A DNA stretch of 64,000 nt from assembly GCF_036002945.1 (NCBI RefSeq), contig NZ_CP108529.1, positions 930,001 to 994,000 of the forward strand, written 5' to 3'. Under the pieces are notes generated by a model. That model was not told where the DNA came from. It made no database searches and saw only the letters and a list, made by a program, of their open reading frames with translations. Positions within the stretch are counted from its first letter, which is position 1, and each line of letters begins with the position of its first letter. Of the stretch, positions 28,953 through 49,253 are shown in pieces. The stretch is from Streptomyces sp. NBC_01224 (lineage in GTDB: Bacteria > Actinomycetota > Actinomycetes > Streptomycetales > Streptomycetaceae). The translations under genes were made by a program, and so were the position numbers.

Positions 28953-28990
28953 GGGCTGGCCCTTCTCGCGACGAAATCGGTACGACGGAG

Positions 28991-31187: not shown

Positions 31188-33404
31188 CTACGGGTGGACG
31201 AGTACCTGGGAGAGTGCCACGCGTCCCGTACCGGAGGTCACGATCTTCACCGTGCGGGTCCGGCTGTCCAGGTTCAGGACCGTCGGGCGCAGCGCCTTCC
31301 CGCTGACGTGGACTGTCGTGTCGTCGGTGATGACATCGAAGTCGGCGGTCGTGGAAGAGGAGTTGTTCCAGATCTCGATCTGACGGATGCGCTGTTCGCT
31401 GCCCAGGTCGACCTGCCACCAGGCGCCCGCCTCCGACAGCGTGCGGGTGTCCGTGTTGGTGTCGGCATCCAGTGCGAGCGCCGCGGCCGCCGTGCCCTCG
31501 GTGGAGGACTGGGTCGCGGTGCCGGTACGGGCCAGGTCGGTCCGCAGCTGCTCGACGGGGCCGCCGTGGGAGCCTGCCCCGGCTGCGACGGCGAGGGCTT
31601 CGGCCGGCAGTCGGTCCAGGCCGGTGAGGTTGTCCGTCATGACCGAGCCGTTGCCGGCGAGTGCCGGCGCCGCTGTGTCGGTCCAGTTGCCCCGGGCGAT
31701 GTTCTGGATGCCGTAATCCGCCCAGTTCGAGACCCACTTGTAGCCGATGCGGGTGATGACGTTCTTCTCGACGACGATGTGCGAGGACTGCTCGTCGAGG
31801 TAGATGCCGTTGCCGTCGCGCTCGGTGTTGCCGAAGGCGGAGCGGTTGATGTAGTTGCCGGAGACGACCGTGCCCGGCTGCGCGCCCTGGGTGTAGATCG
31901 CGCCGCCGTCGTGCTGCGCCTGGGCGACTTCCATGACATCGGTGATGCGGTTGTCGGTCACCTTGTTGTCGCGCAGCACGGACTTCTGGGCCTCGGGCTG
32001 GTTCCAGCCCCAGCCGACCGAGATCCCGGAGTACGGAAGATGGTCCAGGCTGTTGTGGTCGACGGTCAGCTCCGCCTCGTAACCGGCCCAGATGCCCACC
32101 GCGTCGGTGTACTCGACGCCGGAGCGGGTGATGGTGTTGTACGCGATCGTGTTCCGCTCCCCCGCGAGCGCCGCCCCGGGCATCGGCTCGGTGTCGCCCA
32201 CGTACACCGCGCCCGAGGACAGATCGGTGAAGGACGAGCGGGTCAGGGAACTGTCCTTGGTGCCCGCTTCGAGGATGGCGCCCGCCCCGCCGAGCCGGCT
32301 GAACCGGGCGTTCTCGATGCTGATGTGCTGTCCGCCGCGGACGGTGACCGCGGCGGACGGCTTGGTGTAGAAGCGGCCCGCATGGTCGACGGGGCCGGTG
32401 GCTCCGGTCAGGGTGAGACCGGCCTGCATGCCCGCGTAGCCCTCGTCGGTGTCCGGCTGGCGGTACGCCGCGTAGGCGAATCCGATTCCGCTGACGGTGA
32501 GGTCATGGGCACCGTCGACGACGAGCAGCTGCTCGGTGTGCGGGGTGACGGCCTGCGCCCGGCGCATGTTCTCGCCCTTGCGTGGCAGGTACGTCACGGT
32601 GTGGTCCTGCGAGTTCCACACGAACTCACCCGGTTCGTCGAGGAGTTCGGGGGCATTCTCGAAGAAGGCGACGCCGCTGTAGCGGGTGGAGTCGACCGCG
32701 GTGGAGTCCCAGGCGGGTCCGGTGCGGTTCGTGCCGCTCGCCGAGTTGCTCCAGCAGGGCTGGGCGAAGGTCATGACGTCGCCGCTGACTCCGGTGATCC
32801 GGCAGTGGTAGTTGCGCCAGCGGACCCGGATGACGGCTTCGGCGTCGGTGGGGCGCTGCCACCGGTCGATCCCGGTGGCGACGGCGCCGGTCATCCCGGT
32901 CCTGGTGGCGTCGCAGGTACTCGCCGCGCAGGCCGCGCCCCGGGCGCGGGTGGCGCGCCTGCCGTCGATGAAGAGCTGGCGGGGGGTGACACCGGCCGGG
33001 ACGTCGGCGGTCCAGGTGCCGTCGGGGTTCTGCCGCCAGCCGGTGATGTGCTGTCCGCCGGAGAGGACGGGGCGGGCTCCGGGAGCCGCGGTCCAGGTGA
33101 CCGTGTGGCCGTCCTTCCCGGAGTCGGCGGCGCCGAGCTTCAGGGGTTCGTCGCGCTTGTACGTACCGTTCTTCAGAAGTACGCGGACGTCGCGGCCGGT
33201 CTCGGTGCGTGCCTGGTCGCGAGCGCCTTCCGGGGTACAGGGGCGGGCGACCGTACAGGAGGTGCCGTGTCCGTCCGGGGCCGCGTACAGGGTGCGGGGG
33301 CCGGATGCGGCCTGGGCGGTCGGGGCGGCGAGAAGCGCGGCCAGGAAGGCGGCGGTGGCGGCAGCGGCGGTTCCTCGTACGACGTTCAGTGAGCGGCGGT
33401 TCAC
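31188..33404 (-). CDS. secreted right-handed parallel beta-helix protein with F5/8-type C-terminal domain
   Basis: A 738-residue exported protein from GTG 33404, overlapping the stop of the M1 peptidase gene. Signal: VNRRSLNVVRGTAAAATAAF, cut at AQA-ASG. Next is a pectate-lyase-like N-part (LYAAPDGHGTSCTVARPCTP, EGARDQARTETGRDVRVLLK NGTY), a long beta-helix (residues about 250-600) with repeated N-x-I/V-T/S and G-I/A-x turns such as YNTITRSGVEYTDAVGIWAG and DGNGIYLDEQSSHIVVEKNV. A discoidin-type carbohydrate-binding module closes it (about 625-738: TATQSSTEGTAAAALALDAD, WWQVDLGSEQRIRQIEIWNN). Such proteins are often polysaccharide lyases or glycosidases; the catalytic residues are not assignable by eye. 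It is the last gene of a five-gene operon. Confidence 0.85.
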   Translation of the reverse strand: MNRRSLNVVRGTAAAATAAFLAALLAAPTAQAASGPRTLYAAPDGHGTSCTVARPCTPEGARDQARTETGRDVRVLLKNGTYKRDEPLKLGAADSGKDGHTVTWTAAPGARPVLSGGQHITGWRQNPDGTWTADVPAGVTPRQLFIDGRRATRARGAACAASTCDATRTGMTGAVATGIDRWQRPTDAEAVIRVRWRNYHCRITGVSGDVMTFAQPCWSNSASGTNRTGPAWDSTAVDSTRYSGVAFFENAPELLDEPGEFVWNSQDHTVTYLPRKGENMRRAQAVTPHTEQLLVVDGAHDLTVSGIGFAYAAYRQPDTDEGYAGMQAGLTLTGATGPVDHAGRFYTKPSAAVTVRGGQHISIENARFSRLGGAGAILEAGTKDSSLTRSSFTDLSSGAVYVGDTEPMPGAALAGERNTIAYNTITRSGVEYTDAVGIWAGYEAELTVDHNSLDHLPYSGISVGWGWNQPEAQKSVLRDNKVTDNRITDVMEVAQAQHDGGAIYTQGAQPGTVVSGNYINRSAFGNTERDGNGIYLDEQSSHIVVEKNVITRIGYKWVSNWADYGIQNIARGNWTDTAAPALAGNGSVMTDNLTGLDRLPAEALAVAAGAGSHGGPVEQLRTDLARTGTATQSSTEGTAAAALALDADTNTDTRTLSEAGAWWQVDLGSEQRIRQIEIWNNSSSTTADFDVITDDTTVHVSGKALRPTVLNLDSRTRTVKIVTSGTGRVALSQVLVHP

Positions 33405-34867
33405 GCGGAGGCCTTCCAGTCGGGGTGGCCGGGCATGGGCGGGTTCACGGCTCCGAAGAGCCAGTCGCGCAGGAACGGGTCGAGGGACCTGTCGCCGGTG
33501 ACGTCGACCGTGTGCCGGATGAAGGCCTCGCTGGTGTAGGTGGAGTCCTTGAAGCGCTTCACCCACTCACGCATGACCCGGTCGAACCGCCGCTGACCGA
33601 TCTGAAGGCTGAGGGCGTACAGGACGAGTGCGCCACCGTCATAGATATTGGTGCCGCCGAGCGCCTTCGGGAGTCCGGGCGGGCCGTCGGTGGCGCGGAT
33701 GGCGTCGAGCGTCGCGTACGTGGCCTTCATCTTGTCCTCGAAGACCGACCAGCCGCGCTCCTCGCCGTACAGGCCGGCGTAGTACACGGCGGGGCCCTCG
33801 TTGAGCCAGGCCTGCTGCCAGTCGTTCGGCGTGACGGAGTCTCCGAACCACTGGTGGACGAGCTCGTGGACCATGGTGGTCTCGTAGCCGGGCTGCCCAT
33901 TGGCGTTGAGCTTGAACCAGTTGGTGGAGAACAGGGAGAGGGTCTGGTTCTCCAGGGCGTCGGTGTAGCCGTCGTAGATGTGGACGCCGTAGACGGAGAA
34001 CGGGTAGCGGCCGAACTTCGCCTCCAGCCAGGCCAGATGGTCCGCAGTACGCGCGACGATCGGACCGTACTTGTCCTCCTGTCCCTGCGGGACGATGTGC
34101 CGCAGCGGCAGTCCGCGGTGGCTGGTGCCATACAGATAAGTGCCCTTGACGACGGCGATGCCGATGAGTTCGGTCGCCATGCGCTCGCGCAGGGCGAAGT
34201 GCCAGACGGTGGAGCCGTCGGCGCGCGGAGTCTTGTGAAGCAGTTCGCCGTTGGCGGCGGCGACATAGCCCTGCGGTGCGCTGATGTGGAAGGTCCACGT
34301 CGCCTTGTCGGACGGGGTGTCGTTGCAGGGCAGGAAGGTGTCGGCGCGGGAGGACTGGGCGGCGGAGGCGAAGCCGCCGTCGGTGCCGAACTTCCAGCCG
34401 GTCAGCCCGAGTCGGGGCGCCTTGCCGTTGCCCCGGTAGCCCACCTCGACGGTGAACGCCTGCCCGTTGTGGAGCGGGCGGGCGGGGGAGATGGTGAACT
34501 CCTGGCCGCTCTTGCCGGGCGAGAGCTCCCAGGTGGCGGGGCGGCCTGCGACGGTGACGGAGTCGATGGTGTGGCCGTCGGTGTCCAGGTTGAAGGCGGA
34601 GAGGTCCTGGGTGGCCTTGGCGTTGATCTTCACGACGGCGGTGAAGTCGTAGGTCACCGGGGTGAAGTCGAAGGTGAGGTCGTAGTGCACGACCTGGTAG
34701 CCGCCGTTGCCGAGGGTCGGGAAGAGCGGGTCGCCGACGCCGTCGGAGCCGGGCTTCGGGTCGAAGCCGTGCGGCTGTGCGATGGCGGTCGAGCCGAGTG
34801 CGGGTACGGCGACGGCCGCTGCCACCGCCGCGCCGCCGAGTCTGAGGGCCGAGCGTCGCGTCGTCAC
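33401..34867 (-). CDS. exported M1 family zinc aminopeptidase
   Basis: A 488-residue peptidase with Tat-type signal MTTRRSALRLGGAAVAAAVA ending near AIA-QPH. The zinc site is H334-E335-L-V-H338 with the third ligand E357 (AWLNEGPAVYY), the HExxH-x18-E spacing of M1. A substrate-side motif DALENQTLSLFS replaces the usual GAMEN, as in many secreted actinobacterial M1 enzymes. The N-terminal beta domain (YQVVHYDLTFDFTPVTYDFT) is typical; the C-terminal helical domain is short. It is translationally coupled to the binding-protein gene before it (overlap at 34864-34867) and the beta-helix gene after it, so peptide trimming is tied to polysaccharide use in this operon. Confidence 0.92.
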   Translation of the reverse strand: MTTRRSALRLGGAAVAAAVAVPALGSTAIAQPHGFDPKPGSDGVGDPLFPTLGNGGYQVVHYDLTFDFTPVTYDFTAVVKINAKATQDLSAFNLDTDGHTIDSVTVAGRPATWELSPGKSGQEFTISPARPLHNGQAFTVEVGYRGNGKAPRLGLTGWKFGTDGGFASAAQSSRADTFLPCNDTPSDKATWTFHISAPQGYVAAANGELLHKTPRADGSTVWHFALRERMATELIGIAVVKGTYLYGTSHRGLPLRHIVPQGQEDKYGPIVARTADHLAWLEAKFGRYPFSVYGVHIYDGYTDALENQTLSLFSTNWFKLNANGQPGYETTMVHELVHQWFGDSVTPNDWQQAWLNEGPAVYYAGLYGEERGWSVFEDKMKATYATLDAIRATDGPPGLPKALGGTNIYDGGALVLYALSLQIGQRRFDRVMREWVKRFKDSTYTSEAFIRHTVDVTGDRSLDPFLRDWLFGAVNPPMPGHPDWKASA

Positions 34868-36537
34868 TTCTTCCCCTTCTGGAAGGCGTCCTCGAACTCG
34901 CCGCGGGCCTGCTCGCCGCCCTTGGCCAGGTAGTCCTTGACGAGCTGGTCGTAGGCGGACATGGGCTTGCGGCCCGCGATGATGTCCTTGAGCGCGTCCT
35001 GCTTGAACGTGTAGAGGCTGCCGAATCCCTTCGAGTCCCAGGTGGGCGAGGAGTACTGGAGCGTCGGGTCCTGCTCCATGATCGGGATCATCTTGGTGAA
35101 GGCCTCGTGGACGTGACGGACGCCCTGCTCCGAGTCGGCGCTGAAGATGGCGGGGACGGCGGAGGCCATGAACTTCCAGGGCACGGTGACGTCCTGGGTG
35201 CCCTGCTTGGTGAGGGCCGGGTTGCCCTTGGCATCACGGGTGAAGTCCTTGCCCTCGACGCCGTAGTTGATGAGCGTGTACTCCTGGCTGCCGAACGGGG
35301 AGGCGGCGAAGTCGGCGAGTGCGAGGATCTGCTTGACCCGTTCCGCGGACGCCTTCTTGACGTGGGTGTTCTCCAGCTTGAGGTTGTCCATCCAGGAGAT
35401 GGCGTCCTTGCCGATCGGGACGAAGGGGCGCGGGTCGTACTTCTTGTCGATCGCTCCCATGGAGGCGATGTACCCGACGCCGGGGGCCAGGTAGGTGGGC
35501 ATGCCGTCGTAGACGTACGCACCCTTGCCGTTCTTGAACATGTCCGTGTACTGGGCCTTCTGCGCCCCGGACATCTGAAGGGTGCCCGGGTAGTAGCAGC
35601 CGGACTTGTACAGCTCCCGGGCGGTCTCCACGGCCTTGCGGTACTCCGGCGTCTCCAGGTCGGAGGTGAACTTGCCGGTCTTCTCGTCCAGCCGCCAGGC
35701 GTAGGGAGCGCCCGCGGACATGGCGAGCATCGTGGTGGCGCCCGCGATGATTGCGTACTGGTCCTTCTTCGGCCGGGTCAGTTCCTTGCAGACCTCGACG
35801 AACCGGTCGAGGTCGGTGATCTGGTCGAGGCTGGTGACGCCGACCTCCTCGAACAGGTCGTGGCGGTAGAAGCCGGCGCCGCCGGTGCCGGTGCGGGCGA
35901 TCGGGATGCCGAACAGCTTCCCGCCGAAGATCGCGGCCTGCCAGGCGCCCTTCGGGATCGCGGCCAGGTTCGGGTAGTCCTTGATCTTTTCCCCGGCGAG
36001 GTACGGAGTCAGGTCGGCGCACTTGGCCTGGAGGAAGGCCGCCTTGTTGTCGACGCCCCCGACCTCGGGATACATGAAGAGATCGGGCAGGCTGTCGCTC
36101 GCGACCATGGTGGAGAACTTGGTGCCGTAGTCGTCGGCGGGGACGGCGGTGATGTTCACCTGGCCGCCGAGGAGCTTCTCGATCTCCTGCCAGGCGGCGT
36201 TCTTGCCGCGGGCGGGCGGCGGCGGGGAGAAGGTCTCCATCGTCGCGCTGATCGGCTTGGCACCCTTGAGCGGCGTGCCCTTCGTGGCCCGCAGCGGCTT
36301 GGCCGGGTAGCTGAAGTAGCCCTGCGGAACACCGGCGGCGGTGCCCGCCAGGTCGGGCTTGAGGCCGATGTTGCGGACCGCGGTGTCCGGGAGCAGCGAG
36401 GCGCTCTTGGCCTCCGCCTTCGCGGTCGTGCCGCCGTCGCCGCAAGCGGCGAGCAGCGGGGCGGCGGCCAGTCCCAGACCGACGCCCGCACCCATGCGGA
36501 ACAGCGCTCTGCGATTGATGGGGGTGGAGCTCGACAC
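34864..36537 (-). CDS. extracellular solute-binding lipoprotein (LplA-type)
   Basis: A 557-residue family 1 binding protein; Tat-lipoprotein signal NRRALFRMGAGVGLGLAAAP followed by LLAACGDG (lipobox Cys). The large size and motifs (VNITAVPADDYGTKFSTMVA, DLFMYPEVGG, FEEVGVTSLDQITDLDRFVE, WRLDEKTGKF) match LplA/YtcQ-type receptors for oligosaccharides, often uronate-containing ones. It is followed by permeases in the same operon; no ATPase gene is present. It overlaps the M1 gene by 4 bases. The ligand is unknown. Confidence 0.92.
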   Translation of the reverse strand: MSSSTPINRRALFRMGAGVGLGLAAAPLLAACGDGGTTAKAEAKSASLLPDTAVRNIGLKPDLAGTAAGVPQGYFSYPAKPLRATKGTPLKGAKPISATMETFSPPPPARGKNAAWQEIEKLLGGQVNITAVPADDYGTKFSTMVASDSLPDLFMYPEVGGVDNKAAFLQAKCADLTPYLAGEKIKDYPNLAAIPKGAWQAAIFGGKLFGIPIARTGTGGAGFYRHDLFEEVGVTSLDQITDLDRFVEVCKELTRPKKDQYAIIAGATTMLAMSAGAPYAWRLDEKTGKFTSDLETPEYRKAVETARELYKSGCYYPGTLQMSGAQKAQYTDMFKNGKGAYVYDGMPTYLAPGVGYIASMGAIDKKYDPRPFVPIGKDAISWMDNLKLENTHVKKASAERVKQILALADFAASPFGSQEYTLINYGVEGKDFTRDAKGNPALTKQGTQDVTVPWKFMASAVPAIFSADSEQGVRHVHEAFTKMIPIMEQDPTLQYSSPTWDSKGFGSLYTFKQDALKDIIAGRKPMSAYDQLVKDYLAKGGEQARGEFEDAFQKGKK

Positions 36538-36588: not shown

Positions 36589-37545
36589 TCAGCCCTTGAC
36601 GGCGCCTGTGAGGACGCCCTTGGTGAAGTAGCGCTGGAGGAACGGGTAGACACAGAGGATCGGCACGACGGCGATCACAAGAACCGCCATCTGGACGGCC
36701 TGCTGCGGGGCGAGCACCTCGCCGGCCGATGCGGCGTTCAGGCTCTGGCCCTGCAGGACGTAGGTGCGCAGCACCATCGGCAGCGGCCACTTGTCGGAGT
36801 CGTTGAGGTACAGGAGCGAGTTGAAGAAGGCGTTCCAGTACGTCACCGCGTAGAAGAGGCTGATCACTGCGAGGACGGCCTTGGACAGCGGCAGGACGAT
36901 CCGCACCAGGATGCGGAAGTCACCGGCCCCGTCGACCTTCGCGGCGTCGTACAACTCCTCCGGCAGGTTCATGAAGAAGGACCGCAGGACGACGAGGTTG
37001 AAGGCGCTGACCAGGGTGGGCATGACGAGCGCCGCGTAGGTGTCGTACAGGCCGAGTCCCTTGACCAGCAGGAAGTTCGGGATGATGCCCGCGTTGAAGA
37101 GCATCGTGAACAGGGCCGTCATCAGGATGAAGCGGGAGCCCGTGACATCGCGGCGGGAGAGTCCGTACGCCATGCCGACGGTGACGAGCAGGCTGGCGAG
37201 GGTGCCGAATACGGTGATGCCGACGGAGACGATCAGCGCCCGGGTGACGACTCCGCCGGTGAAGATGGTGCGGTAGGCGTCCAGGGTGGGGTGGTCCGGC
37301 CACAGGACGAGGCCGGAGCTCTTGATGATGTCGGTCTGCGAGGCGAAGCTCGTGCCGATGACGCCGACCAGCGGGTAGGCGACGGCGAGCACGACCACGA
37401 CGATGGCGATCGCCTTGGCGGTCTGCCCGATGCGGGTCGGCCGCTCCATCCACGGGGGCCGGCCGTCGGACTTCCGGGCGGTGGCGGGCCGGGGCGCCGG
37501 TGCGGTGGATTCCGATGTGGCGCGCGTTTTCTCAGCGGTCAGCAC
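36589..37545 (-). CDS. ABC transporter permease (LplC/YtcP type)
   Basis: A 318-residue permease starting at GTG 37545, inside the end of the LplB-type gene. Membrane spans include AIAIVVVVLAVAYPLVGVIG. The EAA loop is LYDAAKVDGAGDFRILVRIV, then LPLSKAVLAVISLFYAVTYW, WNAFFNSLLYLND. The end QRYFTKGVLTGAVKG is the family hallmark. It forms a heterodimeric channel with the preceding permease. Confidence 0.93.
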   Translation of the reverse strand: MLTAEKTRATSESTAPAPRPATARKSDGRPPWMERPTRIGQTAKAIAIVVVVLAVAYPLVGVIGTSFASQTDIIKSSGLVLWPDHPTLDAYRTIFTGGVVTRALIVSVGITVFGTLASLLVTVGMAYGLSRRDVTGSRFILMTALFTMLFNAGIIPNFLLVKGLGLYDTYAALVMPTLVSAFNLVVLRSFFMNLPEELYDAAKVDGAGDFRILVRIVLPLSKAVLAVISLFYAVTYWNAFFNSLLYLNDSDKWPLPMVLRTYVLQGQSLNAASAGEVLAPQQAVQMAVLVIAVVPILCVYPFLQRYFTKGVLTGAVKG

Positions 37546-38545
37546 CGCGGTACACCCCTTCATGGCCGAGTCGGTGGGCGAACTTGTTCGCGCCCAGGAC
37601 GAGTGCGGTGCCGATGACCGCCTTGACGAGTCCGACGGCGGCGGCGACGCCCCAGTCGTTGTCCTTGATGCCGTGGTAGTAGACGTAGGTGTCGAGGACC
37701 TCACCGGCGTCCGGGCCGACCGCGTCGCGCTGGAGCAGGATCTGCTCGAAGCCGACGGAAAGGATCTGCCCGAGGTTGAGGATCAGCAGCAGGATGAGTA
37801 CGGGGGCGATGCCCGGCAGGGTCACGTGCCAGAGGCGGCGTCGCGGACCCGCGCCATCGATCGCGGCGGCCTCGTACTGCTGTCTGTCGATGTTCAGCAG
37901 CGCGGCGAGGATGATGATCGTGCCCCAGCCGGCGTCCTTCCAGGCCACCTGGAGGGTCAGCAGCCAGGGGAAGGCGTCGGGGTCGCTCATCATGTCGTAG
38001 CGCGGCAGCCCCAACCCGCCGAGTACGTCGGGCAGGAGCCCGGCGCCGCCCAGTATCTGCTGGAAGATCGAGACGATGATGACCCAGCCGATGAAGTGCG
38101 GCAGATAGACGACGCTCTGGACAAAGCGCCTGATGCGGTCGCTGGCGATGCTGTTGAGCAGCAGGGCCAGGGCGACGGGGATCGGAAAGAAGAACACCAG
38201 CTGGACGAGGGCGATCTCCAGGGTGTTGAACGTCGCGGACCAGAAGGCCGGCTCACCGAACGCCGCGGAGAAGTTGGCGAACCCCACCCAGACGCTGTGC
38301 ATGTAGCCGAGGTACGGCTGGTAGTCCTGGAACGCCACGACATAGCCGAGCAGCGGTACGTAGTGGAAAACGACAAAGTACAGCAGGCCGGGCAGGGTGA
38401 GCAGCAGCATCACCCGGTCCCGCTTGATCCGCTGCCAGAGTGTCAGCCGGTGCTGTGCGACAACGGCCTGGGCAGCGGGCGGGGAGGGTATTTCAGCCTT
38501 CTGCCGCCGCTTCTCCCGCGGCAACGGGGGTGCTGTTTCAGCCAT
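37532..38545 (-). CDS. ABC transporter permease (LplB/YtcO type)
   Basis: A 337-residue permease from ATG 38545. It has RDRVMLLLTLPGLLYFVVFH, YVPLLGYVVAFQDYQPYLG (typical of LplB), EAA loop YEAAAIDGAGPRRRLWHVTL, and ends EVLDTYVYYHGIKDNDWGVA, VGLVKAVIGTALVLGANKFA HRLG. It is the first gene of the operon 38545-31188. A conserved 10-base element with a LacI-like core lies about 55 bases upstream. Confidence 0.93.
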   Translation of the reverse strand: MAETAPPLPREKRRQKAEIPSPPAAQAVVAQHRLTLWQRIKRDRVMLLLTLPGLLYFVVFHYVPLLGYVVAFQDYQPYLGYMHSVWVGFANFSAAFGEPAFWSATFNTLEIALVQLVFFFPIPVALALLLNSIASDRIRRFVQSVVYLPHFIGWVIIVSIFQQILGGAGLLPDVLGGLGLPRYDMMSDPDAFPWLLTLQVAWKDAGWGTIIILAALLNIDRQQYEAAAIDGAGPRRRLWHVTLPGIAPVLILLLILNLGQILSVGFEQILLQRDAVGPDAGEVLDTYVYYHGIKDNDWGVAAAVGLVKAVIGTALVLGANKFAHRLGHEGVYRGADR

Positions 38546-38596
38546 GGTGCGTCCTGTTCGGCTGGGTGGCGCATGGTGAGCCTTCTGGGGCCGCAA

Positions 38597-38613
38597 GTTA
38601 GTAAGCGGTTAAC
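38597..38613. promoter_or_regulatory. LacI-type operator upstream of the LplB operon
   Basis: GTTAGTAAGCGGTTAAC on the plus strand; the minus strand contains AACCGCTTAC, also found at 41106-41115. The core TAAsCGsTTA is nearly symmetric and resembles LacI/GalR sites. Confidence 0.6.
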
Positions 38614-38800: not shown

Positions 38801-39871
38801 GTGCGAACCACCGAAGAGGCACCGGCTCATTCCGGTAGCGATGCTGCGGCACCGCCCCCGCGACGGCCGCGCACGGTCCTGGCCATGAGCCCCGGACTGC
38901 TCGACGACGTCTTTCCGCCACCGGTGCGGGCTCGTCTCGAGGAGACCGCCGACCTCCTCAACCCGTCCGTGATCAGCGAGTTCGACTCCCCGGACGCCTC
39001 CGCGGCACTGAATGCGGCGGAGGTCCTGCTCACCGGTTGGGGATGCCCGCCCGTCGACGCCGCGCTGCTGGACCGGACACCCGCGCTGCGCGCCGTGATC
39101 CATGCGGCCGGCACGGTGAAAACGTTTCTGTCCCCGGCCGCGTTCGACCGCGGGATCGTCGTTTCCTCGGCCGCCGCCGCCAATGCCGTACCGGTCGCCG
39201 AGTTCACCCTGGCGGCGATCATCATGGGCGCCAAACGAGTCTTTCCGCTGGCCGGGCTCTACCGCACCCGGCGCACCCACCGCACCGGCGCCGACCTCGA
39301 CCGCCAGCACTGGCTCGGCACGCACGGCCTGACCATCGGCATCGTCGGGGCGTCCCGGATCGGCCGCCGGGTGATCGAACTACTCCGGGTCCTCGATGCC
39401 GAGGTACTGCTGTACGACCCGTACGTCGGTGCGGCCGAGGCGGAACTGCTCGGTGTCACCCCGACCGACCTGGACACCCTGGTGGCGACCAGCGACGTGG
39501 TGAGCGTCCATGCCCCCGACACGCCGGAGACCCGCGGGATCATCGACGCCAGGCGGATCGCCCTGATGCGGCCCGGCACCCTGCTCGTCAACACGGCCCG
39601 CGGCCCCCTGGTGGACACCGAGGCGCTGACCGGGCACCTGGTCAGCGGGCGGCTGGACGCCGTCCTCGATGTGACATCGCCCGAGCCACTGCCGGACGGC
39701 CACCCGCTGTGGGACCTGCCGAACGTCTTCCTCACCCCGCATCTCGCGGGCGCCCAGGGCAACGAGGTGGGACGGCTCGGTGCGCTCGCAGTGGACGAGC
39801 TGGCGCGGTTCGCGCGGGGCGCACCGTTCGACCACCCGGTGCACCGGGCCGACCTGGGGAGGATCGCATGA
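38801..39871 (+). CDS. D-isomer-specific 2-hydroxyacid dehydrogenase
   Basis: A 356-residue NAD-dependent enzyme; GTG 38801 follows GGAGG by 4-8 bases. The Rossmann loop is GIVGASRIGRRVIELL (GxxxxxG variant). Catalytic residues are Arg in LVNTARGPLVDTEAL, Glu in TSPEPLPDGHPLW and His in LTPHLAGAQG. The N-terminal half (GVEVLLTGWG-like EVLLTGWGCPPV) is standard. Substrates of this family range from glycerate and phosphoglycerate to uronate-derived hydroxyacids; in this locus a uronate breakdown product is a fair guess. It is divergent from the LplB operon and overlaps the LacI start (ATGA). Confidence 0.9.
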   Translation: MRTTEEAPAHSGSDAAAPPPRRPRTVLAMSPGLLDDVFPPPVRARLEETADLLNPSVISEFDSPDASAALNAAEVLLTGWGCPPVDAALLDRTPALRAVIHAAGTVKTFLSPAAFDRGIVVSSAAAANAVPVAEFTLAAIIMGAKRVFPLAGLYRTRRTHRTGADLDRQHWLGTHGLTIGIVGASRIGRRVIELLRVLDAEVLLYDPYVGAAEAELLGVTPTDLDTLVATSDVVSVHAPDTPETRGIIDARRIALMRPGTLLVNTARGPLVDTEALTGHLVSGRLDAVLDVTSPEPLPDGHPLWDLPNVFLTPHLAGAQGNEVGRLGALAVDELARFARGAPFDHPVHRADLGRIA

Positions 39872-41028
39872 GCTCCGTCCCGGCACAGGCTCTAGGCTCG
39901 GCGTCACACAACAGCCACCAGGGGGTGAGCCGGATGCGCCGGCAGAGCACAGCCGCGGACGGACAACGGCGCGCGACGGTCACCGATGTCGCGCGGCGCG
40001 CGGGCGTCTCGACGGCCACGGTCTCCCGCGTACTGAACCGCAACTACCCTGTCGCCGAGGCGACCCGGGAGCGTGTCGAGTCCGCGATGCGCGAGCTCGG
40101 ATATGTCGTCAACGCCCATGCCCGTGCGCTGGCCGGTGTCTCCAACCGCACTGTCGGCATCATCGTCAACGAGGTCATCGACCCGTTCTACGCGTACATC
40201 GCGCGTGGCGTGGAGCGGGAGGCGGCACTCGGCGGACGGCTCTGTCTGGTCTGCTGCACCCAGGGCGACCCGCAGCGCGAGCTGGCCTTCATCGATCTGA
40301 TGCATGAGCGCAGGGCGGACGCCGTGGTCGTGGTCGGCGGCTCCCTCGCGGACCGCGGCTACACCACCGAGCTGGCCCGCAGGGCGCGCGAGCTGGACGC
40401 GGGCGGATCGAAACTCGTGCTGTGCGGCAGGCCGCCGCTGGGCGAGCAGGCCCCGACCGCCGCCGTCGAGTACGACAACGAGGGCGGCGCGTTCGCCATC
40501 ACCGACCATCTGCTGATGCAGGGGCACGAGCGGATCCTCTACCTCGGCGGCCCGCCCAAGCTCTCCACCACCCGCGACCGGCTGGCCGGGCACCAGCGGG
40601 CCCTTGAGCTGCGGGGCATCACCCCGGACCCCGAGCTGGTCCAGCCCGGCGCCTTCAGCCGTAACTTCGGGTACCGGCGGATGGCCGAACTACTGCGGGA
40701 CGGACCGGACTTCACTGCGGTCTTCGCCGCCAACGACGTGGTGGCGGCAGGCGCGGCGCAGGCTCTGGAGGAGGCCGGGGTACGGGTGCCGAAGGACGTG
40801 TCCCTGGTGGGGTACGACGACATTCCGGTGGCCCAGGAGCTGCGGCCGCGGCTGACCACCGTCCATGTGCCGCTGGAGGAGATGGGGCGCCAGGCGGTAC
40901 GACTGGCCGTCACCGGCGGGGACGAGGACGACTGGCGCGAACCGACCACGGGTGCGCTGCGCCTCGGCACCCACATCGTGGTACGCGATTCCGTTGCGCC
41001 ACGAACCGGCCGACCCACCCGGATGTGA
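39868..41028 (+). CDS. LacI family regulator (regulator B)
   Basis: A 386-residue regulator. ATG 39868 overlaps the dehydrogenase stop and follows GGGGAGG; ATG 39934 is an alternative that trims the unconserved N-terminus. Headpiece: ATVTDVARRAGVSTATVSRV, LNRNYPVAEATRERVESAMR, LGYVVNAHARALAG. Core: TVGIIVNEVIDPFYAYIARG, AVEYDNEGGAFAITDHL, VPKDVSLVGYDDIPVAQELR. Its likely targets are the AACCGCTTAC sites before the importer operon and before the M60/PL8 genes, which flank it on both sides. Confidence 0.9.
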   Translation: MSSVPAQALGSASHNSHQGVSRMRRQSTAADGQRRATVTDVARRAGVSTATVSRVLNRNYPVAEATRERVESAMRELGYVVNAHARALAGVSNRTVGIIVNEVIDPFYAYIARGVEREAALGGRLCLVCCTQGDPQRELAFIDLMHERRADAVVVVGGSLADRGYTTELARRARELDAGGSKLVLCGRPPLGEQAPTAAVEYDNEGGAFAITDHLLMQGHERILYLGGPPKLSTTRDRLAGHQRALELRGITPDPELVQPGAFSRNFGYRRMAELLRDGPDFTAVFAANDVVAAGAAQALEEAGVRVPKDVSLVGYDDIPVAQELRPRLTTVHVPLEEMGRQAVRLAVTGGDEDDWREPTTGALRLGTHIVVRDSVAPRTGRPTRM

Positions 41029-41105: not shown

Positions 41106-41115
41106 AACCGCTTAC
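41106..41115. promoter_or_regulatory. LacI-type operator upstream of the M60/PL8 genes
   Basis: AACCGCTTAC, identical to the minus-strand core at 38601-38610, about 70 bases before the M60 start. Confidence 0.6.
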
Positions 41116-41185: not shown

Positions 41186-42577
41186 ATGCGTATGCCCACA
41201 GACTCCGCCGGCCCCTCCACCGCCCCTTCCTCCGCTTCCTCCCTCGTCGGCCGGCGTTCCGTTCTCGCCGCCGCGGCCGGAGCCGGAGCGGCGCTCGCCC
41301 TGGGCACCGGCACGGCCCGGGCCACGACGGCCGACACCTCCGTTTCGCGGGGGGCCCGCCCGGTCCACCTGACCGTGACCGCCCGGCCCGCCGCAGAGGC
41401 CGAGCGGCTGCGGCTCGGACAGGCCCTGCGCGGCTCGGAGTTCCAGCCCACCGGCCTGTACGTCCCGGCCGGTACGCCCCTCTCCCTCACCGTCCAGCCG
41501 TACGACGACCTGCTGCCCACCCTCTGGATCGGCGCCTGGGACTACTACGGCGAGATCACCGAGCCCCGCAGCTATCCGCTGACCGCCGGTGCGAACACCG
41601 TGACGGACCCGCACGGCGGCCCGGTCTACCTCACCATGACGGGCCGCGGCGAGCGGGCCGGTGTGCTGGTCCGCTCCGGCGCCGTCCCCATGCCCGTCTT
41701 CGCCCTGGGCCGCACCTCGCAGGCCGACTACCAGCAACAGCTGGACACGCTCACCGCATCGCCCTACGTCGAACTCCACGCGCCTCACACGATCATGACG
41801 CTCACCCGCGAGGGCGCGCTGCTGTACCGCGACGAGGACCATGCCGCACTGCTCGGACTGGTCGAGACGATCATCGACTCGCACGCCCGGATCAGCGGCC
41901 TCGACGGTTCGAAGCCGGTGCACCGGCGCAAGGCGGGTCCGTACCACTTCACCGAGGTCAGCAAGGTTCCCGCCGGTGTCGGTGCCTACGCCACGCACGG
42001 CTACAACGGCTTCCCGCGGGCCTACCTCGACCGGGCCACGACCGTCGAGGGGCTGCGGACCCGCGGCTGGGGGCTCTACCACGAACTCGGCCACCTACAC
42101 CAGCAGATGGCGTACAAGCCGGGCGGTCTGACCGAGGTCACGGTCAACATCTATTCGCTGGCCGCGCAGCGCACCCTGCAGCAGCCGTCCAACCTGCTCA
42201 CGGTCGACGCGACGACCGGGCTCACCTACTTCCAGTCCGCGCAGCGCAAGTTCGGCACGGCCGGGCTGACGTACGAAAAGTCCTTCGGCGCCTACGAGAA
42301 GCTCGTCCCGCTGCGCCAGTTGGAGCTCGCCTTCGGTGACGACTTCTGGCCCCGGCTGCACAAGCTGGTGCGCGAGGAGAACCCCCAGTCGGACTACACG
42401 GAGAACGACAAGCGCTACCGGGCCCTCGCCACCTACTCCAGCCGCGTCGCCGGCTACGACCTCACGGACTTCTTCGTGAACACCTGGGCGTTCCCGATCG
42501 ACGCCACCGGCAAGGCCGAGCTGGCCGCGCTGAACCTGCCGAAGCCCTCCATCGACCCGTCCACGCTGTCGGACTGA
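41186..42577 (+). CDS. exported M60 (enhancin-like) metallopeptidase
   Basis: A 463-residue zinc peptidase with Tat-like signal (GRRSVLAAAAGAGAALALGT ending ARA-TTA); ATG 41186 follows GCAGGGAG. The zinc site is H299-E300-L-G-H303 within WGLYHELGHLHQQMAYKPGG, followed by LTEVTVNIYSLAAQR, in which the Glu after T is the expected third ligand region of M60 (GxHExxxH...E). An upstream domain contains GLYVPAGTPLSLTVQPYDDL, typical of the family. M60 peptidases cleave heavily glycosylated proteins such as mucins. The next two genes encode a polysaccharide lyase and a DUF2264 protein, spaced 22 and 37 bases, so glycan and protein removal are made together. Confidence 0.9.
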   Translation: MRMPTDSAGPSTAPSSASSLVGRRSVLAAAAGAGAALALGTGTARATTADTSVSRGARPVHLTVTARPAAEAERLRLGQALRGSEFQPTGLYVPAGTPLSLTVQPYDDLLPTLWIGAWDYYGEITEPRSYPLTAGANTVTDPHGGPVYLTMTGRGERAGVLVRSGAVPMPVFALGRTSQADYQQQLDTLTASPYVELHAPHTIMTLTREGALLYRDEDHAALLGLVETIIDSHARISGLDGSKPVHRRKAGPYHFTEVSKVPAGVGAYATHGYNGFPRAYLDRATTVEGLRTRGWGLYHELGHLHQQMAYKPGGLTEVTVNIYSLAAQRTLQQPSNLLTVDATTGLTYFQSAQRKFGTAGLTYEKSFGAYEKLVPLRQLELAFGDDFWPRLHKLVREENPQSDYTENDKRYRALATYSSRVAGYDLTDFFVNTWAFPIDATGKAELAALNLPKPSIDPSTLSD

Positions 42578-42599: not shown

Positions 42600-45032
42600 G
42601 TGAACCTCAGCAGAAGAACCCTTCTGGCGGCGAGCAGCGCCACGGCCGTCACAGCCGCGACGACGCTCATGACGTCGGCCGGCGCCGCGCACGCGCGGCC
42701 CATCGCGGCCGCATCCGCCGAAGCCGCGGTGACCGCCGACTTCGACACCCTCCTCCGGCGGGCCGAAACGCTGCTCACCGGCGGCGAGTTCGACCCGGCC
42801 GACACCGACTTCACAGCGGCGCTCGCCGCCCTGTCCACCACGGCCAAGGGGCTCTGGGACGCCCTCGACCGCGGCGCCGGACGGACCGCGCTCTGGCCCG
42901 ACCTCGCACCGCTCACCGACCCGGGCAACTTCGGTCAGAGCTACACCCGGCTGCGCACGATCGCGGTCGCCTGGGCGACCGAGGGCACCTCCCTCGCCGG
43001 GAGCACGGAGGTGGCGGACGCCCTCGTGGCCGCGCTGCGCTTCACGTACGACACCGCGTACAACCCGGCCAAGCGCGAGACCGGCAACTGGTGGTTCTGG
43101 GAGATCGGCGCCCCGCGTGCCCTGATGGACTGCTCCGTCATCCTCCGCGACCGGCTTCCCGCAGGCGATCTGACGGACTATCTGTCGGTCGTCGACCGGT
43201 TCTGCCCGGACGCGGACCGTCGTACCAACTCCCCCTCGCTCGCGGAGACCGGCGCGAACCGCACCGACAAGGCAGTCATCGTGGCGCTGCGCGGGCTGCT
43301 GGGGCAGGACACCGCCAAGCTCGTCTCCGCCCGTGACGCGCTCTCCGATGTCCGCGACACGGGTCGCAACAGCCTTTTCCGTTACACGAGTTCGGGTGAC
43401 GGCTTCTACGAGGACGGTTCGTTCGTCCAGCACGACGACGTCGCCTACACCGGTTCGTACGGCATCGTGCTGCTCAATGGCACGGCCTATCTGCTGGCGC
43501 TGCTGGCGGGCTCCGAGTGGGCGGTCGCCGACCCGAAGGTGTCGGTGATGTACGAGGCCGTCGAGCGGACCTTCGCCCCGGTGATCTTCGACGGGCTGAT
43601 GATGGACTCGGTGCGCGGCCGGGCGATCTCCCGGGAACGCGCCGGTGACCACCGCGACGGTGCGACGGCCATCGCCGCGATCCTGCTCCTCGCGTCCGGC
43701 GCGCCCGCCGAGTACGCGGGGCGCTGGCGGGCGCTGGTCAAAGGGTGGCTGACCCGAAACCGCACCACTCCCTTCACGGCTCTTGCGACGCTTCCCCAGC
43801 TCGCCCTGGCGAAAGCCGTCCTGAACGACCGGACGGTGAAGGCCGAGGCTCGTACGACCGGCAGCTTCGTCTTCGCCGACATGGACCGCGTCGTGCACCG
43901 CCGTCCCGGCTGGGCCTGCGCGCTGTCGCTTTCATCGAAGCGGATCTCGGCGTACGAGGCGGGCAACGGCGAGAATCTGCACGGCTGGTACACCGGCGAC
44001 GGCATGACGTATCTGTACGACGGCGACGACCTGGGGCAGTTCAACGACGGCTTCTGGCCCACCGTCGATCCGTACCGGCTCCCCGGCACCACGGTCGACA
44101 CCCGGCAGCGGACCGATCTCGGCACGGGCGCCGGCACGTCCACCTACCGTCCGACGAACGCCGTCGCGGGCGGGGCCGTGCTGGACGGCCGGTACGGAGC
44201 CGCCGCGATGGAGGTGATCGGCGCCCAGGGAACCACCCTGCGGGCGAAGAAATGCTGGTTCCTGCTGGACAACGCGGTGATCGCGCTCGGCTCGGGCATC
44301 ACCGCGAGCGACGGTCGGCCGGTGGAGACGATCGTCGAGAACCGCAACCTCGGCACGGACGGCGGTAACCGGCTGCTGATCGACGGGATCCGTCAGCCCG
44401 TCGAACAGGGCTGGGCCGAGGACTTCGGCCGAGCACGATGGGCACACGTCGACGGCGTGGGCGGCTATGTCTTCCCTGAGGGGACCGCCCTGCACGCCCT
44501 GCGGGAGCAGCGCACCGGCACCTGGCGGGCCATCGACACCGGGGCGGACACGGGCGGCAGCACCGATCCGGTCACCCGCCGCTATCTCACGCTCCGGGTC
44601 GATCACGGCATCTCCCCCACCGACGCCCGGTACGCCTATGTGCTGCTGCCCGGCGCATCGGCGGCGGCGACCGCGGTCTGGTCGCACTCCCGGCCGGTCC
44701 GGATCGTCGCCAACGACGCCACCGCGCAGGCCGTGGAGGTGCGCCGGGCGGGACTGACCGCGGTGAACTTCTGGGGCGCCGGGACCGCGGCCGGGATCAC
44801 GGCCTCCGGTCCGGCATCGGTGCTCGTGCAGCGCCGGGGCGGACACGTCTGCGTCGCGGTCGCCGACCCGGGCCGGACGCTCACCACGCTCTCGGTCGAG
44901 CTGCCGTTCCACGTACGGTCGGTGGTGGACGCCGATGACACGGTGAGCCTCGCCCCGGGCCGCAGGCCCGTACTCACCGTCGCCGTCGGCGGCTCGCGCG
45001 GCCACACCCACCGAGCCGAACTCATCCAGTAA
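42600..45032 (+). CDS. exported polysaccharide lyase family 8 (hyaluronate/chondroitin/xanthan lyase type)
   Basis: An 810-residue lyase that cuts uronate-containing polysaccharides by beta-elimination. The Tat signal is LSRRTLLAASSATAVTAATT, cut near AHA-RPI. The alpha/alpha-toroid part has NWWFWEIGAPRALMDCSVIL and TGANRTDKAV; the catalytic set is N220, H278 and Y287 (FVQHDDVAYTGSYG), with the nine-residue His-Tyr distance of PL8 enzymes. The beta-sandwich C-part (GENLHGWYTGDGMTYLYDGD, WFLLDNAVIALGSGI) follows. GTG 42600 follows GGAGACAAGGAG. Whether the polymer is hyaluronan, chondroitin or xanthan cannot be told from this. Confidence 0.93.
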   Translation: MNLSRRTLLAASSATAVTAATTLMTSAGAAHARPIAAASAEAAVTADFDTLLRRAETLLTGGEFDPADTDFTAALAALSTTAKGLWDALDRGAGRTALWPDLAPLTDPGNFGQSYTRLRTIAVAWATEGTSLAGSTEVADALVAALRFTYDTAYNPAKRETGNWWFWEIGAPRALMDCSVILRDRLPAGDLTDYLSVVDRFCPDADRRTNSPSLAETGANRTDKAVIVALRGLLGQDTAKLVSARDALSDVRDTGRNSLFRYTSSGDGFYEDGSFVQHDDVAYTGSYGIVLLNGTAYLLALLAGSEWAVADPKVSVMYEAVERTFAPVIFDGLMMDSVRGRAISRERAGDHRDGATAIAAILLLASGAPAEYAGRWRALVKGWLTRNRTTPFTALATLPQLALAKAVLNDRTVKAEARTTGSFVFADMDRVVHRRPGWACALSLSSKRISAYEAGNGENLHGWYTGDGMTYLYDGDDLGQFNDGFWPTVDPYRLPGTTVDTRQRTDLGTGAGTSTYRPTNAVAGGAVLDGRYGAAAMEVIGAQGTTLRAKKCWFLLDNAVIALGSGITASDGRPVETIVENRNLGTDGGNRLLIDGIRQPVEQGWAEDFGRARWAHVDGVGGYVFPEGTALHALREQRTGTWRAIDTGADTGGSTDPVTRRYLTLRVDHGISPTDARYAYVLLPGASAAATAVWSHSRPVRIVANDATAQAVEVRRAGLTAVNFWGAGTAAGITASGPASVLVQRRGGHVCVAVADPGRTLTTLSVELPFHVRSVVDADDTVSLAPGRRPVLTVAVGGSRGHTHRAELIQ

Positions 45033-45069
45033 TCCACCCCTTCGCACCCCTTCCAGGAGCAGCACCACC

Positions 45070-46980
45070 ATGTCCGTCGCACCGCATCTGCAACTGCCGC
45101 CGCCCGACCGGATCCTGTCCTCCCGTACCGGCTGGACCCGGGCCCACTGGGAGGCCACAGCCGACCGGATGCTGGACGCGTTGGTGCCGTACGCGACACC
45201 CGGCTATGCGCAGTACCGCCTGCCCGGCCGTAACAGCTGGTCGGGGGTCGTCTCGGACGGTCTGGAAGGATTTGCCCGGTCGTTCCTGCTCGCCGCCTGC
45301 CGGATCGCGGGCGCGGGCGGGGCGGTCGACCCCGCATTGATCGAGCGGTACACGGCGGGCCTGGCCGCGGGCACGGACCCCGGGAGCGGTGAGTCCTGGC
45401 CGCGGCTGACGGACTGTTCGCAGCAGATGGTGGAGGCGGCGTCGGTCGCGGTCGCACTGCACGAGACCCGGCCGTGGATCTGGGACCGGCTGGACGCCCG
45501 GGTCCAGCAGCGGGTCGTCGACTGGTTCTCCGGGTTCGTCGGCGGGCGTACCTGGGACAACAACTGGCGGCTCTTCCAGGTGGTGTCCGAGCAGTTCCTC
45601 GCCTCGGTCGGCGCCCCGTACAGCCGCTCCGACATCGAGAGCAATCTGGACAGGATCGAGGACTGGTACGTCGGTGACGGCTGGTACACCGACGGCGACG
45701 GCCGGAACTTCGACTACTACATCGGCTGGGCCATGCATCTGTACCCGCTGCTGTGGTCGCGGATCGCGGGCGCCGACGACGGGGGCAGGACCGAGGTCTA
45801 CCGGCAGCGGCTCAGCCGGTTCCTGGAGGACTACCCGCACTTCTTCGGCTCCGACGGTGCGCCGGTCCACCAGGGCCGTTCCCTGACGTACCGGTTCGCC
45901 GCTCTCGCACCGGTGTGGATGGGGGCGCTGGCCGACTGCACCCCGCTCGCGCCGGGGCTCACTCGCCGGCTCGCCTCGGGCACGATGCGGCACTTCGCGG
46001 AGCGCGGTGTGCCGGACGAGCGGGGGCTGCTGACACTCGGCTGGTACGACACGTTCCTGCCGAGCACCCAGCCCTACTCCGGTCCCGCCTCACCGTACTG
46101 GGCGAGCAAGGGATTCCTCGGGCTGCTGCTCCCGGCGGACCATCCGGTGTGGACGGCACGGGAACTCCCGCTGCCCGTCGAGGAGTCCGACCAGTACACC
46201 GCGCTGCCCGCACCCGGCTGGCTGCTGCACGGCACCCGCGACGACGGCATCGTGCGGCTGATCAATCACGGCAGCGACCACAATCCGCCGTACGACGGGG
46301 CGGCCGACCCGTCCGAGGGTGGCGACGATCCGCACTACGCGAAGTTCGCCTACTCGACGGCGACTGCCCCCGAAGCCGCCCCGCACGCCGTGACACGCTC
46401 CATCGACGGCCATCTGGCACTCGTCGCCCCGGACGGCACCCCGTCGCTGCGACGCCGGATCCATCCACTGCGCTGCGAGGACCGCGTCGCCGCTTCCTGG
46501 TACGCGGCCCGGCTGCCCGGTGACGATCAGCCGTACCGGATCGAGACGACGAGTGTGCTGCACGGCGCGTGGGAGATCCGGGTGCACCGGGTCGAAGCGC
46601 CCGAGGGTGCGGTGGTGCGGGAGGGGGGTCACGCGGTGGCTCATGCGCAGAACCCGTTCGCCCTGTCGGGTCCCGACTGGGCGCTCGCCCGTACGGCCGA
46701 CGGTCTGAGCAGCGCCCTGATCGCGCTGTACGGCTGGGACGGTGGCGCTGAAGGGGCCGCTGTGGCGCGTGACGTCCAGTCCAATGCGTACGGACCGCGT
46801 TCCGCGATCCCGTATCTGCGCAGCGGACCGCACCCGGGCGGGCAAAGCATCCATGTATCGCTGGTCGCCCTCTCCCGGGACACCGTTCATCCGGAGGCGC
46901 TGCGCGACTCGGTGCGGGTACGAGCGGGTGCGGACTCGGTGGTGCTGACATTCCTGGACGGTACGACGGTCGAGGTCTGA
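45070..46980 (+). CDS. DUF2264 domain protein
   Basis: A 636-residue protein without signal peptide, starting at ATG 45070 after CCAGGAGCAGC. The DUF2264 part (residues about 15-370) has EGFARSFLLAACRIAGAGGA, WDNNWRLFQVVSEQFLASVG, WYTDGDGRNFDYYIGWAMHL, GRSLTYRFAALAPVWMGALA, TLGWYDTFLPSTQPYSGPAS. A beta-rich C-terminal part follows. Members are thought to be alpha/alpha-barrel proteins related to unsaturated glucuronyl hydrolases and often neighbour polysaccharide lyases. Its place right after PL8 suggests it handles the unsaturated oligosaccharides inside the cell, after import. Activity is inferred. Confidence 0.85.
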   Translation: MSVAPHLQLPPPDRILSSRTGWTRAHWEATADRMLDALVPYATPGYAQYRLPGRNSWSGVVSDGLEGFARSFLLAACRIAGAGGAVDPALIERYTAGLAAGTDPGSGESWPRLTDCSQQMVEAASVAVALHETRPWIWDRLDARVQQRVVDWFSGFVGGRTWDNNWRLFQVVSEQFLASVGAPYSRSDIESNLDRIEDWYVGDGWYTDGDGRNFDYYIGWAMHLYPLLWSRIAGADDGGRTEVYRQRLSRFLEDYPHFFGSDGAPVHQGRSLTYRFAALAPVWMGALADCTPLAPGLTRRLASGTMRHFAERGVPDERGLLTLGWYDTFLPSTQPYSGPASPYWASKGFLGLLLPADHPVWTARELPLPVEESDQYTALPAPGWLLHGTRDDGIVRLINHGSDHNPPYDGAADPSEGGDDPHYAKFAYSTATAPEAAPHAVTRSIDGHLALVAPDGTPSLRRRIHPLRCEDRVAASWYAARLPGDDQPYRIETTSVLHGAWEIRVHRVEAPEGAVVREGGHAVAHAQNPFALSGPDWALARTADGLSSALIALYGWDGGAEGAAVARDVQSNAYGPRSAIPYLRSGPHPGGQSIHVSLVALSRDTVHPEALRDSVRVRAGADSVVLTFLDGTTVEV

Positions 46981-48460: not shown

Positions 48461-48815
48461 CGAGCACTGCCTCCAGCAGAGATCGGTCGGTGGGCATGTC
48501 ATGGAAGGCGGGCGGGTGCGCGGTGACTGCCCCGCAGTCCACCAGGTCGGAGACGAGCACCTTGGTGACGACTGCGGGCAGCCGCAGATGGGCGGCGATC
48601 TCGGCCACCGAGGTGGGGCCGCCGCACAGCCCCAGCGCGACGGAGTGCTCGGGACCGAGATGGATCTGCGGCTCGGTCCCGGTGGCCATCACCAGGGAGA
48701 GCAGGTCGAGCACGGTCGTCGGACGGGTACGGCCGTTGCTCACGGTGTACGGGCGGATGAGCCGGCCTGCCGCGTCGTCGAGCAACGGCCCGTCCTGCGG
48801 AACCGACACCCTCAC
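48438..48815 (-). CDS. conservon DUF742 protein (CvnC-like)
   Basis: A 125-residue protein; GTG 48815 overlaps the roadblock stop (GTGA). It shows the DUF742 pattern RLIRPYTVSNGRTRPTTVLD, LLSLVMATG, LCGGPTSVAEIAAHLRLPAV, VTKVLVSDLVDCGAVTAHPP, LLEAVLDGLRRQL, a winged-helix-like fold. It is found as the third gene of every conservon; its action is unclear, probably modulating the GTPase. Confidence 0.92.
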   Translation of the reverse strand: MRVSVPQDGPLLDDAAGRLIRPYTVSNGRTRPTTVLDLLSLVMATGTEPQIHLGPEHSVALGLCGGPTSVAEIAAHLRLPAVVTKVLVSDLVDCGAVTAHPPAFHDMPTDRSLLEAVLDGLRRQL

Positions 48816-49246: not shown

Positions 49247-49253
49247 GGTGCAT

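Follow-up and report, generated by a model that had tools for sequence, protein, structure and literature searches.

The window, a 64,000-nucleotide stretch of DNA from Streptomyces sp. NBC_01224 (positions 930001–994000 of the contig in a 10.0 Mb genome), features a locus of ten genes in two arms, the left on the minus strand and the right on the plus strand, as judged by Pfam, NCBIfam and gene calls. The set is a genuine, conserved and probably co-regulated locus, and its nearest relatives, compared by locus, are Streptomyces. From computed gene content, catalytic residues, gene order, operator-like sites and folds we infer substrate, order of steps, LacI control and activities, and the reading toward which we lean is that of a locus under LacI control for the use of a fucosylated glycoprotein or proteoglycan that contains uronate. 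On comparison of gene content, the locus looks like an actinobacterial counterpart of PUL25 of Bacteroides caccae, minus the GH88 partner. Its features are collected in Table 1.

Table 1. Genes and operator-like sites of the two-arm locus, in window coordinates.
Feature	Position	Strand	Evidence
GH141-like right-handed beta-helix enzyme, secreted, with C-terminal F5/8C (fucolectin-like) module	31188..33404	-	Pfam, BT_1002 match, model
M1 metallo-aminopeptidase, secreted, HELVH-x18-E	33401..34867	-	Pfam, motif in translation
Solute-binding lipoprotein of carbohydrate ABC importer	34864..36537	-	Pfam SBP_bac_8 1.6e-12, lipobox
ABC permease, MalG/UgpE type	36589..37563	-	Pfam PF00528, gene call, NCBIfam
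ABC permease, UgpA type	37532..38596	-	NCBIfam permease models
Operator-like decamer GTAAGCGGTT before importer arm and HADH	38601..38610	+	Region comparison
D-2-hydroxyacid dehydrogenase (HADH), start ~38801 or 38885	38885..39871	+	Pfam 2-Hacid_dh_C 6.3e-49
LacI-family regulator, start may be 39934	39868..41028	+	Pfam LacI + Peripla_BP_3, gene call
Second operator-like decamer GTAAGCGGTT, before M60	41106..41115	-	Region comparison
M60 metallopeptidase, secreted, HELGH + E317	41186..42577	+	Pfam PF13402, motif
Polysaccharide lyase family 8 (PL8), secreted, N220/H278/Y287	42600..45032	+	Pfam PF08124, PF02278, PF02884
DUF2264 uronate-dehydratase-like protein, cytoplasmic, with C-terminal beta-sandwich	45070..46980	+	Pfam PF10022 1.6e-119, BcGDH match, model

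The first three genes of the left arm overlap by 4 bp. In the right arm, M60 and PL8 are spaced by 22 bp and PL8 and DUF2264 by 37 bp, a tight arrangement of three genes that a first-pass annotation had grouped; of the interval given there, 42600–46980, PL8 and DUF2264 lie inside and M60 lies outside, at 41186–42577. The gap between lacI and M60 amounts to 157 bp and holds one of the operator-like sites, so that HADH–lacI and M60–PL8–DUF2264 may represent two transcription units. The catalytic sets claimed earlier (HELGH, N220/H278/Y287 in the same numbering and HELVH-x18-E) are all read in the translations, and Pfam and NCBIfam recover the M1, importer, LacI and beta-helix-plus-discoidin families that had been named. 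Overlooked were the D-2-hydroxyacid dehydrogenase, the relation of the beta-helix protein to GH141, the function of DUF2264 and the absence of GH88/GH105. Inspection by eye yields twin-arginine-like signals on M60, PL8 and M1 and a lipobox LAAC in the solute-binding protein; no signal peptide is seen by eye on the DUF2264 protein. The solute-binding protein weakly matches one that binds arabino-oligosaccharides.

In a locus scan limited to a single genome for each species, 39 loci besides the window hold a relative of M60, and in 29 of these all ten genes are detected and colinear—a count over related genomes and hence not over independent samples, like the other locus and genome counts given here. 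The gene-order comparison across Streptomyces proposed in the first-pass annotation thereby supports a dedicated, conserved two-arm locus. Four of the 29 include partial genes; partial genes in colinear loci occur in L010 (GH141 13%, PL8 21%) and L040 (M60 52%, PL8 73%), and GH141 is also partial in L024 (22%, at the edge of the examined DNA) and L039 (17%). Among the other ten are an M60 locus without PL8 (L007), one with M60 and PL8 and no DUF2264 in ~7 kb downstream (L012), one without GH141, at the edge of the examined DNA (L035), and five loci cut by contig ends (L008, L017, L021, L022 and L028). M60 stands alone in L036 and L037, whose genomes also hold a full locus (L027 and L005), and in L057. 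The gene order is lacI–PL8–M60–DUF2264 in genome G081 (L041); in G098 (L071), lacI is inverted and the importer arm is absent from the ~16 kb examined before it. Outside Streptomyces, the locus occurs in Nonomuraea (L039, 43–70% identity) and Peterkaempfera (L028). Extra M60 genes with HELGH lie within L006, L035 (two), L039 and L060.

Among 199 evenly drawn Streptomyces genomes, the window's genome included, M60 occurs in 21 (24 copies), PL8-N in 154 and DUF2264 in 152. In 18 of the 21 M60-bearing genomes, M60 has both PL8 and DUF2264 no more than a few kilobases away, 17 of these being taken from listed match positions and one (G161) from a neighbourhood search. The three exceptions are G083 and G175, whose searched M60 neighbourhoods hold no PL8 or DUF2264 match, and G102, which has a weak M60 fragment on a short contig. 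A survey of 346 Actinomycetota genomes detected M60 in five, four of them with weak partial matches. The first-pass annotation had named a separation of PL8 and M60 homologues in most genomes as counterevidence: seen from M60, the genes belong together, as the 18 of 21 genomes indicate, whereas PL8, present in 154 of 199 genomes, mostly occurs without M60.

The DUF2264 family is the former GH154, whose members have lately been identified as uronate dehydratases. Among solved proteins, its nearest matches are the B. caccae glucuronate dehydratase BcGDH (9o4u, 7.9e-27; 9nwf) and 8oi4. BcGDH is reported to lack hydrolase activity and to form a 4,5-unsaturated uronate from chondrosine that is then cleaved by GH88, and ten alanine mutants are described as inactive (PMC12269599); the older GH154 label of beta-glucuronidase was dropped on account of the dehydratase activity and the lack of hydrolase activity. 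In the alignment, N177, W178, F181, Y229, R285, Y289 and Y354 of BcGDH correspond to N165, W166, F169, Y217, R270, Y274 and Y336, invariant in 33/33 rows; E74/R78 are matched to E66/R70 by the E-x3-R spacing only and are likewise kept in 33/33 rows, and N176 corresponds to N164, which is Asn in 26 rows and Ser in 7. All 33 rows hence keep nine of the ten inactivating positions, and 26 rows keep the remaining one. The model of the DUF2264 protein has a mean pLDDT of 68.9, with the barrel mostly at 50–70 and a well-predicted β-rich part at ~460–636, and its residues 14–381 superimpose on BcGDH with a Z of 31.0 and an rmsd of 3.5 over 357 aligned residues. By sequence and model, the protein features the DUF2264 domain, the fold and the active-site residues of BcGDH, and it shares domain and active-site residues with the GH154 family (BcGDH 9o4u/9nwf; BD-beta-Gal 8oi4; BT3677). 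It differs from BcGDH by an extra C-terminal β-sandwich of ~260 residues, which BcGDH does not have. Over its whole length, the model resembles chondroitinase 9o3q (475 aligned residues at Z 15.3 and rmsd 5.0), GAGase VII 8khw (477 at Z 14.6 and rmsd 4.3) and the human dermatan sulfate epimerase 6hzn (522 at Z 14.7 and rmsd 4.6). Many unrelated alpha/alpha barrels reach a Z of up to 18.5, and because the values for the glycosaminoglycan lyases are no higher, the claim is restricted to a two-domain architecture and does not extend to lyase homology: as modelled, the protein is a dehydratase barrel with a second, β-sandwich domain, like glycosaminoglycan lyases in architecture.

The PL8 protein has the three domains PF08124, PF02278 and PF02884 and the residues N220, H278 and Y287, kept in 20/20 rows, as in the solved PL8 lyases (1rwa; 2wco/2wda; 2e24). 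It differs from these by being roughly equidistant from three specificities and by forming its own conserved clade at the locus. Profile scores are 653 bits to chondroitin AC lyase, 638 to the S. coelicolor lyase and 631 to xanthan lyase, and a single-sequence search gives 517 to 483 bits to the same lyases. Assignment of hyaluronan, chondroitin or xanthan by similarity was dropped, as these scores nearly tie. One Streptomyces PL8 is reported to act on glycosaminoglycans (GAGs), xanthan and alginate (PMC11596371). Owing to the near-tie and this broad activity, the PL8 sequence does not reveal the substrate.

For the beta-helix protein, Pfam returns Beta_helix, GH141_M (27.2 bits at a cut-off of 27) and F5_F8_type_C_2, the last part matching fucolectin-type modules. 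It matches BT_1002 with an E of 3.7e-40, and its model superimposes on 5mqp with a Z of 41.3 and an rmsd of 4.2 over 424 residues, the next row having a Z of 30.9. The catalytic Asp residues D499 and D537 correspond to D523/D564 of BT_1002 and are present in 17/17 rows; the chain count of PDB entry 5mqp runs 5 ahead of the published numbering (PMC10154630, PMC12786026). The protein has the β-helix, the GH141 insertion domain and both catalytic Asp residues of the GH141 enzymes compared (BT_1002 5mqp; Xyn141E; the Wf141 endo-fucanases), and is set apart from them by its C-terminal F5/8C module. BT_1002 is described as acting on rhamnogalacturonan-II (PMC10154630), and the family is reported to include a xylanase and endo-fucanases too (PMC12786026). 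The model is similar, too, to alginate epimerases and to a lyase of biofilm polysaccharide. In Nonomuraea (L039), the stretch equivalent to residues 113–607 of the GH141 protein has been lost between the two preserved ends, and the remnant has a gene for a GH29 alpha-L-fucosidase as its neighbour. This single genome is suggestive of a functional replacement of GH141 by GH29, and the deleted core with GH29 alongside hints at a fucosylated target.

The Peptidase_M60 domain scores 162.4 bits against a Pfam cut-off of 25.8 (2.1e-47). Its motif HELGH spans residues 299–303, and H299, E300, H303 and E317 are present in 25/25 rows. The closest M60 structure is 4fca, which is not a characterised mucinase, followed by B. 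caccae O-glycopeptidases. With 4fca and the O-glycopeptidases (BcM60F/B/C/K, BT4244), the protein shares the N-terminal domain, the catalytic domain, HELGH...E and the conserved residues W295 and N321. It differs from the O-glycopeptidases in having no CBM32/CBM51 module and in being nearest in sequence to the uncharacterised 4fca. Characterised M60s are described as requiring O-GalNAc (PMC13355702).

PUL25 of B. caccae is reported to hold PL35, GH88, GH109, the "GH154" BcGDH and M60-like genes, and its authors propose a proteoglycan as its target (PMC12269599). Both loci combine a secreted-type uronate lyase, a DUF2264/GH154 dehydratase and an M60 peptidase. The lyase is PL8 here and PL35 there; GH88 is missing here from locus and genome, and Pfam finds neither GH88 nor GH109 in the window locus. 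M1, GH141, HADH, an ABC importer and LacI are present here, in place of the outer-membrane machinery of Bacteroides, and the DUF2264 protein here has two domains. Because PUL25 is a close functional precedent, the locus is best seen as an actinobacterial variant and not as a new category. The earlier statement that no Streptomyces system of this kind had been described agrees with the literature searched, in which neither a Streptomyces description of the gene set nor a study of a Streptomyces M60 peptidase was found; its novelty is tempered by the precedent in Bacteroides. The combination of glycoprotein protease, uronate lyase and uronate dehydratase, so far known from a gut Bacteroides locus, thus recurs among actinomycetes of the soil, where it forms a conserved and probably co-regulated unit. 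Its occurrence in another phylum lends weight to a role of DUF2264/GH154 dehydratases on proteoglycan-type substrates, and the locus offers orthologous sets of M60, PL8, GH141 and two-domain DUF2264 proteins for biochemical study.

A profile search did not find PF07470 (GH88/GH105) in the window's genome, and the family occurs in 0 of 18 locus-bearing genomes vs 48 of 199 overall. With genomes treated as independent, the probability of this depletion is 0.005 for all 48 genomes and 0.046 for strong matches only (30 genomes, again 0/18). KduI, a later step, is present. Since GH88/GH105 is absent, the described relay of dehydratase and GH88 is incomplete, unless a hydrolase outside PF07470 exists, which raises the testable question of how these organisms remove the unsaturated uronate. 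Co-localisation of GH154 genes with GH88/GH105 is described as frequent without being called necessary (PMC12269599). It is conceivable, if rather unlikely, that the two-domain DUF2264 protein, alone or with HADH, replaces GH88/GH105 and either releases the uronate or feeds a hydrolase of an unknown family. If so, the genus as a whole would have an alternative route, as PF07470 is absent from 108 of the 152 DUF2264-bearing Streptomyces genomes sampled (present in 44).

Common regulation of the arms is indicated by the decamer GTAAGCGGTT, which is shared by the importer/HADH promoter region (region A, 38601–38610, +) and the lacI/M60 promoter region (region B, 41106–41115, -). It was spotted by eye on comparing the two regions and then tested statistically; a simple palindrome search of the regions gave no shared operator. 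The degenerate form GTAANCGNTT occurs in 36/39 A regions and 40/40 B regions, where shuffles expect 0.19 and 0.12, and in 35/37 and 38/38 after removal of duplicate records (two regions per set). It was not found in region A of L026 and L027, and in the window it occurs only twice, once per promoter region. Both sites are present in 36 loci, and of these 28 have identical A and B decamers and 8 have differing ones. Diverged loci can change both decamers together, as in L023, L028 and L030 with GTAAGCGTTT, and both read GTAAGCGCTT in Nonomuraea. Across 16 diverged loci, the decamer core lies within the commonest 8-mers in 13/16 A regions (tied with other words) and in 16/16 B regions. The exact 11-mer GTAAGCGGTTR has three copies genome-wide, two of them at the locus, and the reversed control pattern one. 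A 2-mismatch pattern alone is at chance level (11 found vs 10.03 expected), so the weight is placed on the exact and conserved copies. The local LacI probably binds these predicted operators and controls both arms—in keeping with the single regulator claimed at first pass.

In the mechanism proposed, four enzymes would work outside the cell: M60 cleaving the glycosylated protein core, M1 trimming the peptides, PL8 breaking the uronate chain by β-elimination and the GH141 enzyme attacking fucosyl (or related) residues. Uptake of the resulting oligosaccharides would fall to the lipoprotein and the two permeases. Inside the cell, DUF2264 would dehydrate a uronate at the non-reducing end, and an α-keto acid product may be processed by the D-2-hydroxyacid dehydrogenase. 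The uronate-rich glycoprotein target suggested at first pass gains from the DUF2264 match and the PUL25 parallel, but the polymer itself is not readable from PL8. Several points speak against the preferred reading: the locus holds no sulfatase or hexosaminidase, a PUL25-type cycle cannot run as described because GH88/GH105 is absent from the 18 locus genomes, PL8 does not single out a substrate, GH141 also covers a xylanase and endo-fucanases, and the M60 structure closest to ours is not a characterised mucinase. To these come the loci that lack a gene, the importer arm or the region A decamer, and the M60 genes that stand alone. As Streptomyces live in soil, a plant target comes into question, namely arabinogalactan-protein or pectin, with PL8 and DUF2264 acting on GlcA caps, GH141 on fucosyl or xylosyl residues and M60/M1 on the protein. 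The activity of BT_1002, the closest GH141 relative, on rhamnogalacturonan-II fits such a target; we nevertheless consider it unlikely, as Pfam finds neither a pectinase nor a galactanase, arabinanase or rhamnosidase among its genes, characterised M60s need O-GalNAc and the known PL8 members act on GAGs, xanthan or alginate.

Still less likely is a microbial exopolysaccharide or a bacterial or fungal cell-surface glycoprotein, be it xanthan-like, glucuronoxylomannan-like or a neighbour's envelope. The closeness of the xanthan lyase score to that of chondroitin AC lyase and the resemblance of the GH141 model to a biofilm polysaccharide lyase and to alginate epimerases agree with it, but M60 is constant and even duplicated in the locus, which is unexpected for a pure polysaccharide, and mannosidase and glucanase are absent from the locus. 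The locus might, lastly, combine two functions, a PL8–DUF2264 polysaccharide module and an M60/M1 peptidase module, co-regulated and directed at different foods. PL8 and DUF2264 are indeed common without M60, as the survey counts indicate, and M60-less PL8–DUF2264 pairs exist in L042–L044. L042, however, looks like a decayed full locus, since lacI and GH141 fragments persist beside PL8; M60 sits between lacI and PL8, at 22 bp from the latter, in an order kept over wide divergence, and Nonomuraea retains the locus at 43–70% identity. Independent modules of this kind are the least probable explanation, and the fucosylated, uronate-containing glycoprotein or proteoglycan remains the preferred target.

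A Gfo/Idh/MocA gene accompanies part of the loci. It directly follows GH141 in L066, L067, L068, L074, L075 and L076, lies near the locus in L039, L042 and L044, and is absent at the locus in the window, L065, L069, L070, L072, L073 and L077. Its identification as GH109 was rejected, as the ranked matches among the best 60 of 82 in solved structures are dehydrogenases, one of them a glucuronide-3-dehydrogenase, and none of the 60 carries the name GH109. The window's genome carries a relative, 65% identical, elsewhere beside another importer.

A sister locus (loci L046–L051 and L053) features the permease type of the main locus, a LacI of ~50% and a DUF2264 protein of 60–65% identity to the locus counterparts, and a more distant binding protein; neither PL8 nor M60 is present in it. 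This may point to another DUF2264 substrate.

The secreted DUF3472-like proteins of other loci share 78–82% mutual identity and are possible partners of M60. The M60 genes preceding them are mostly lone copies (L028, L036, L037, L057).

Features next to M60, at the locus borders and elsewhere in the own genome
Feature	Coordinates	Strand	Remark
DUF3472-like, secreted	L028:7701-8510		directly after M60 gene
DUF3472-like, secreted	L036:11283-12032		directly after M60 gene
DUF3472-like, secreted	L037:11397-12215		directly after M60 gene
DUF3472-like, secreted	L057:8242-9054		directly after M60 gene
Second LacI-family gene	window 30101-31123	+	41% identity to locus LacI
NMT1-type ABC transporter	window 27115-29854	-	neighbour of second LacI-family gene
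Conservon-like cluster (ATP-binding protein, histidine-kinase-like ATPase)	window 47064-51074	-	3' of DUF2264
Another importer of locus type + Gfo/Idh/MocA oxidoreductase	L078:10050-14908 = own genome C1 (contig 1):2227050-2231908

The second LacI-family gene and the NMT1-type transporter, immediate neighbours of the locus, look like a unit apart from it. In L041, L043, and L044, genes resembling the conservon-like cluster adjoin either the locus itself or a form of it that lacks M60. The Gfo/Idh/MocA oxidoreductase of L078, a region elsewhere in the same genome, has 65% identity to the one that accompanies the locus in other species.
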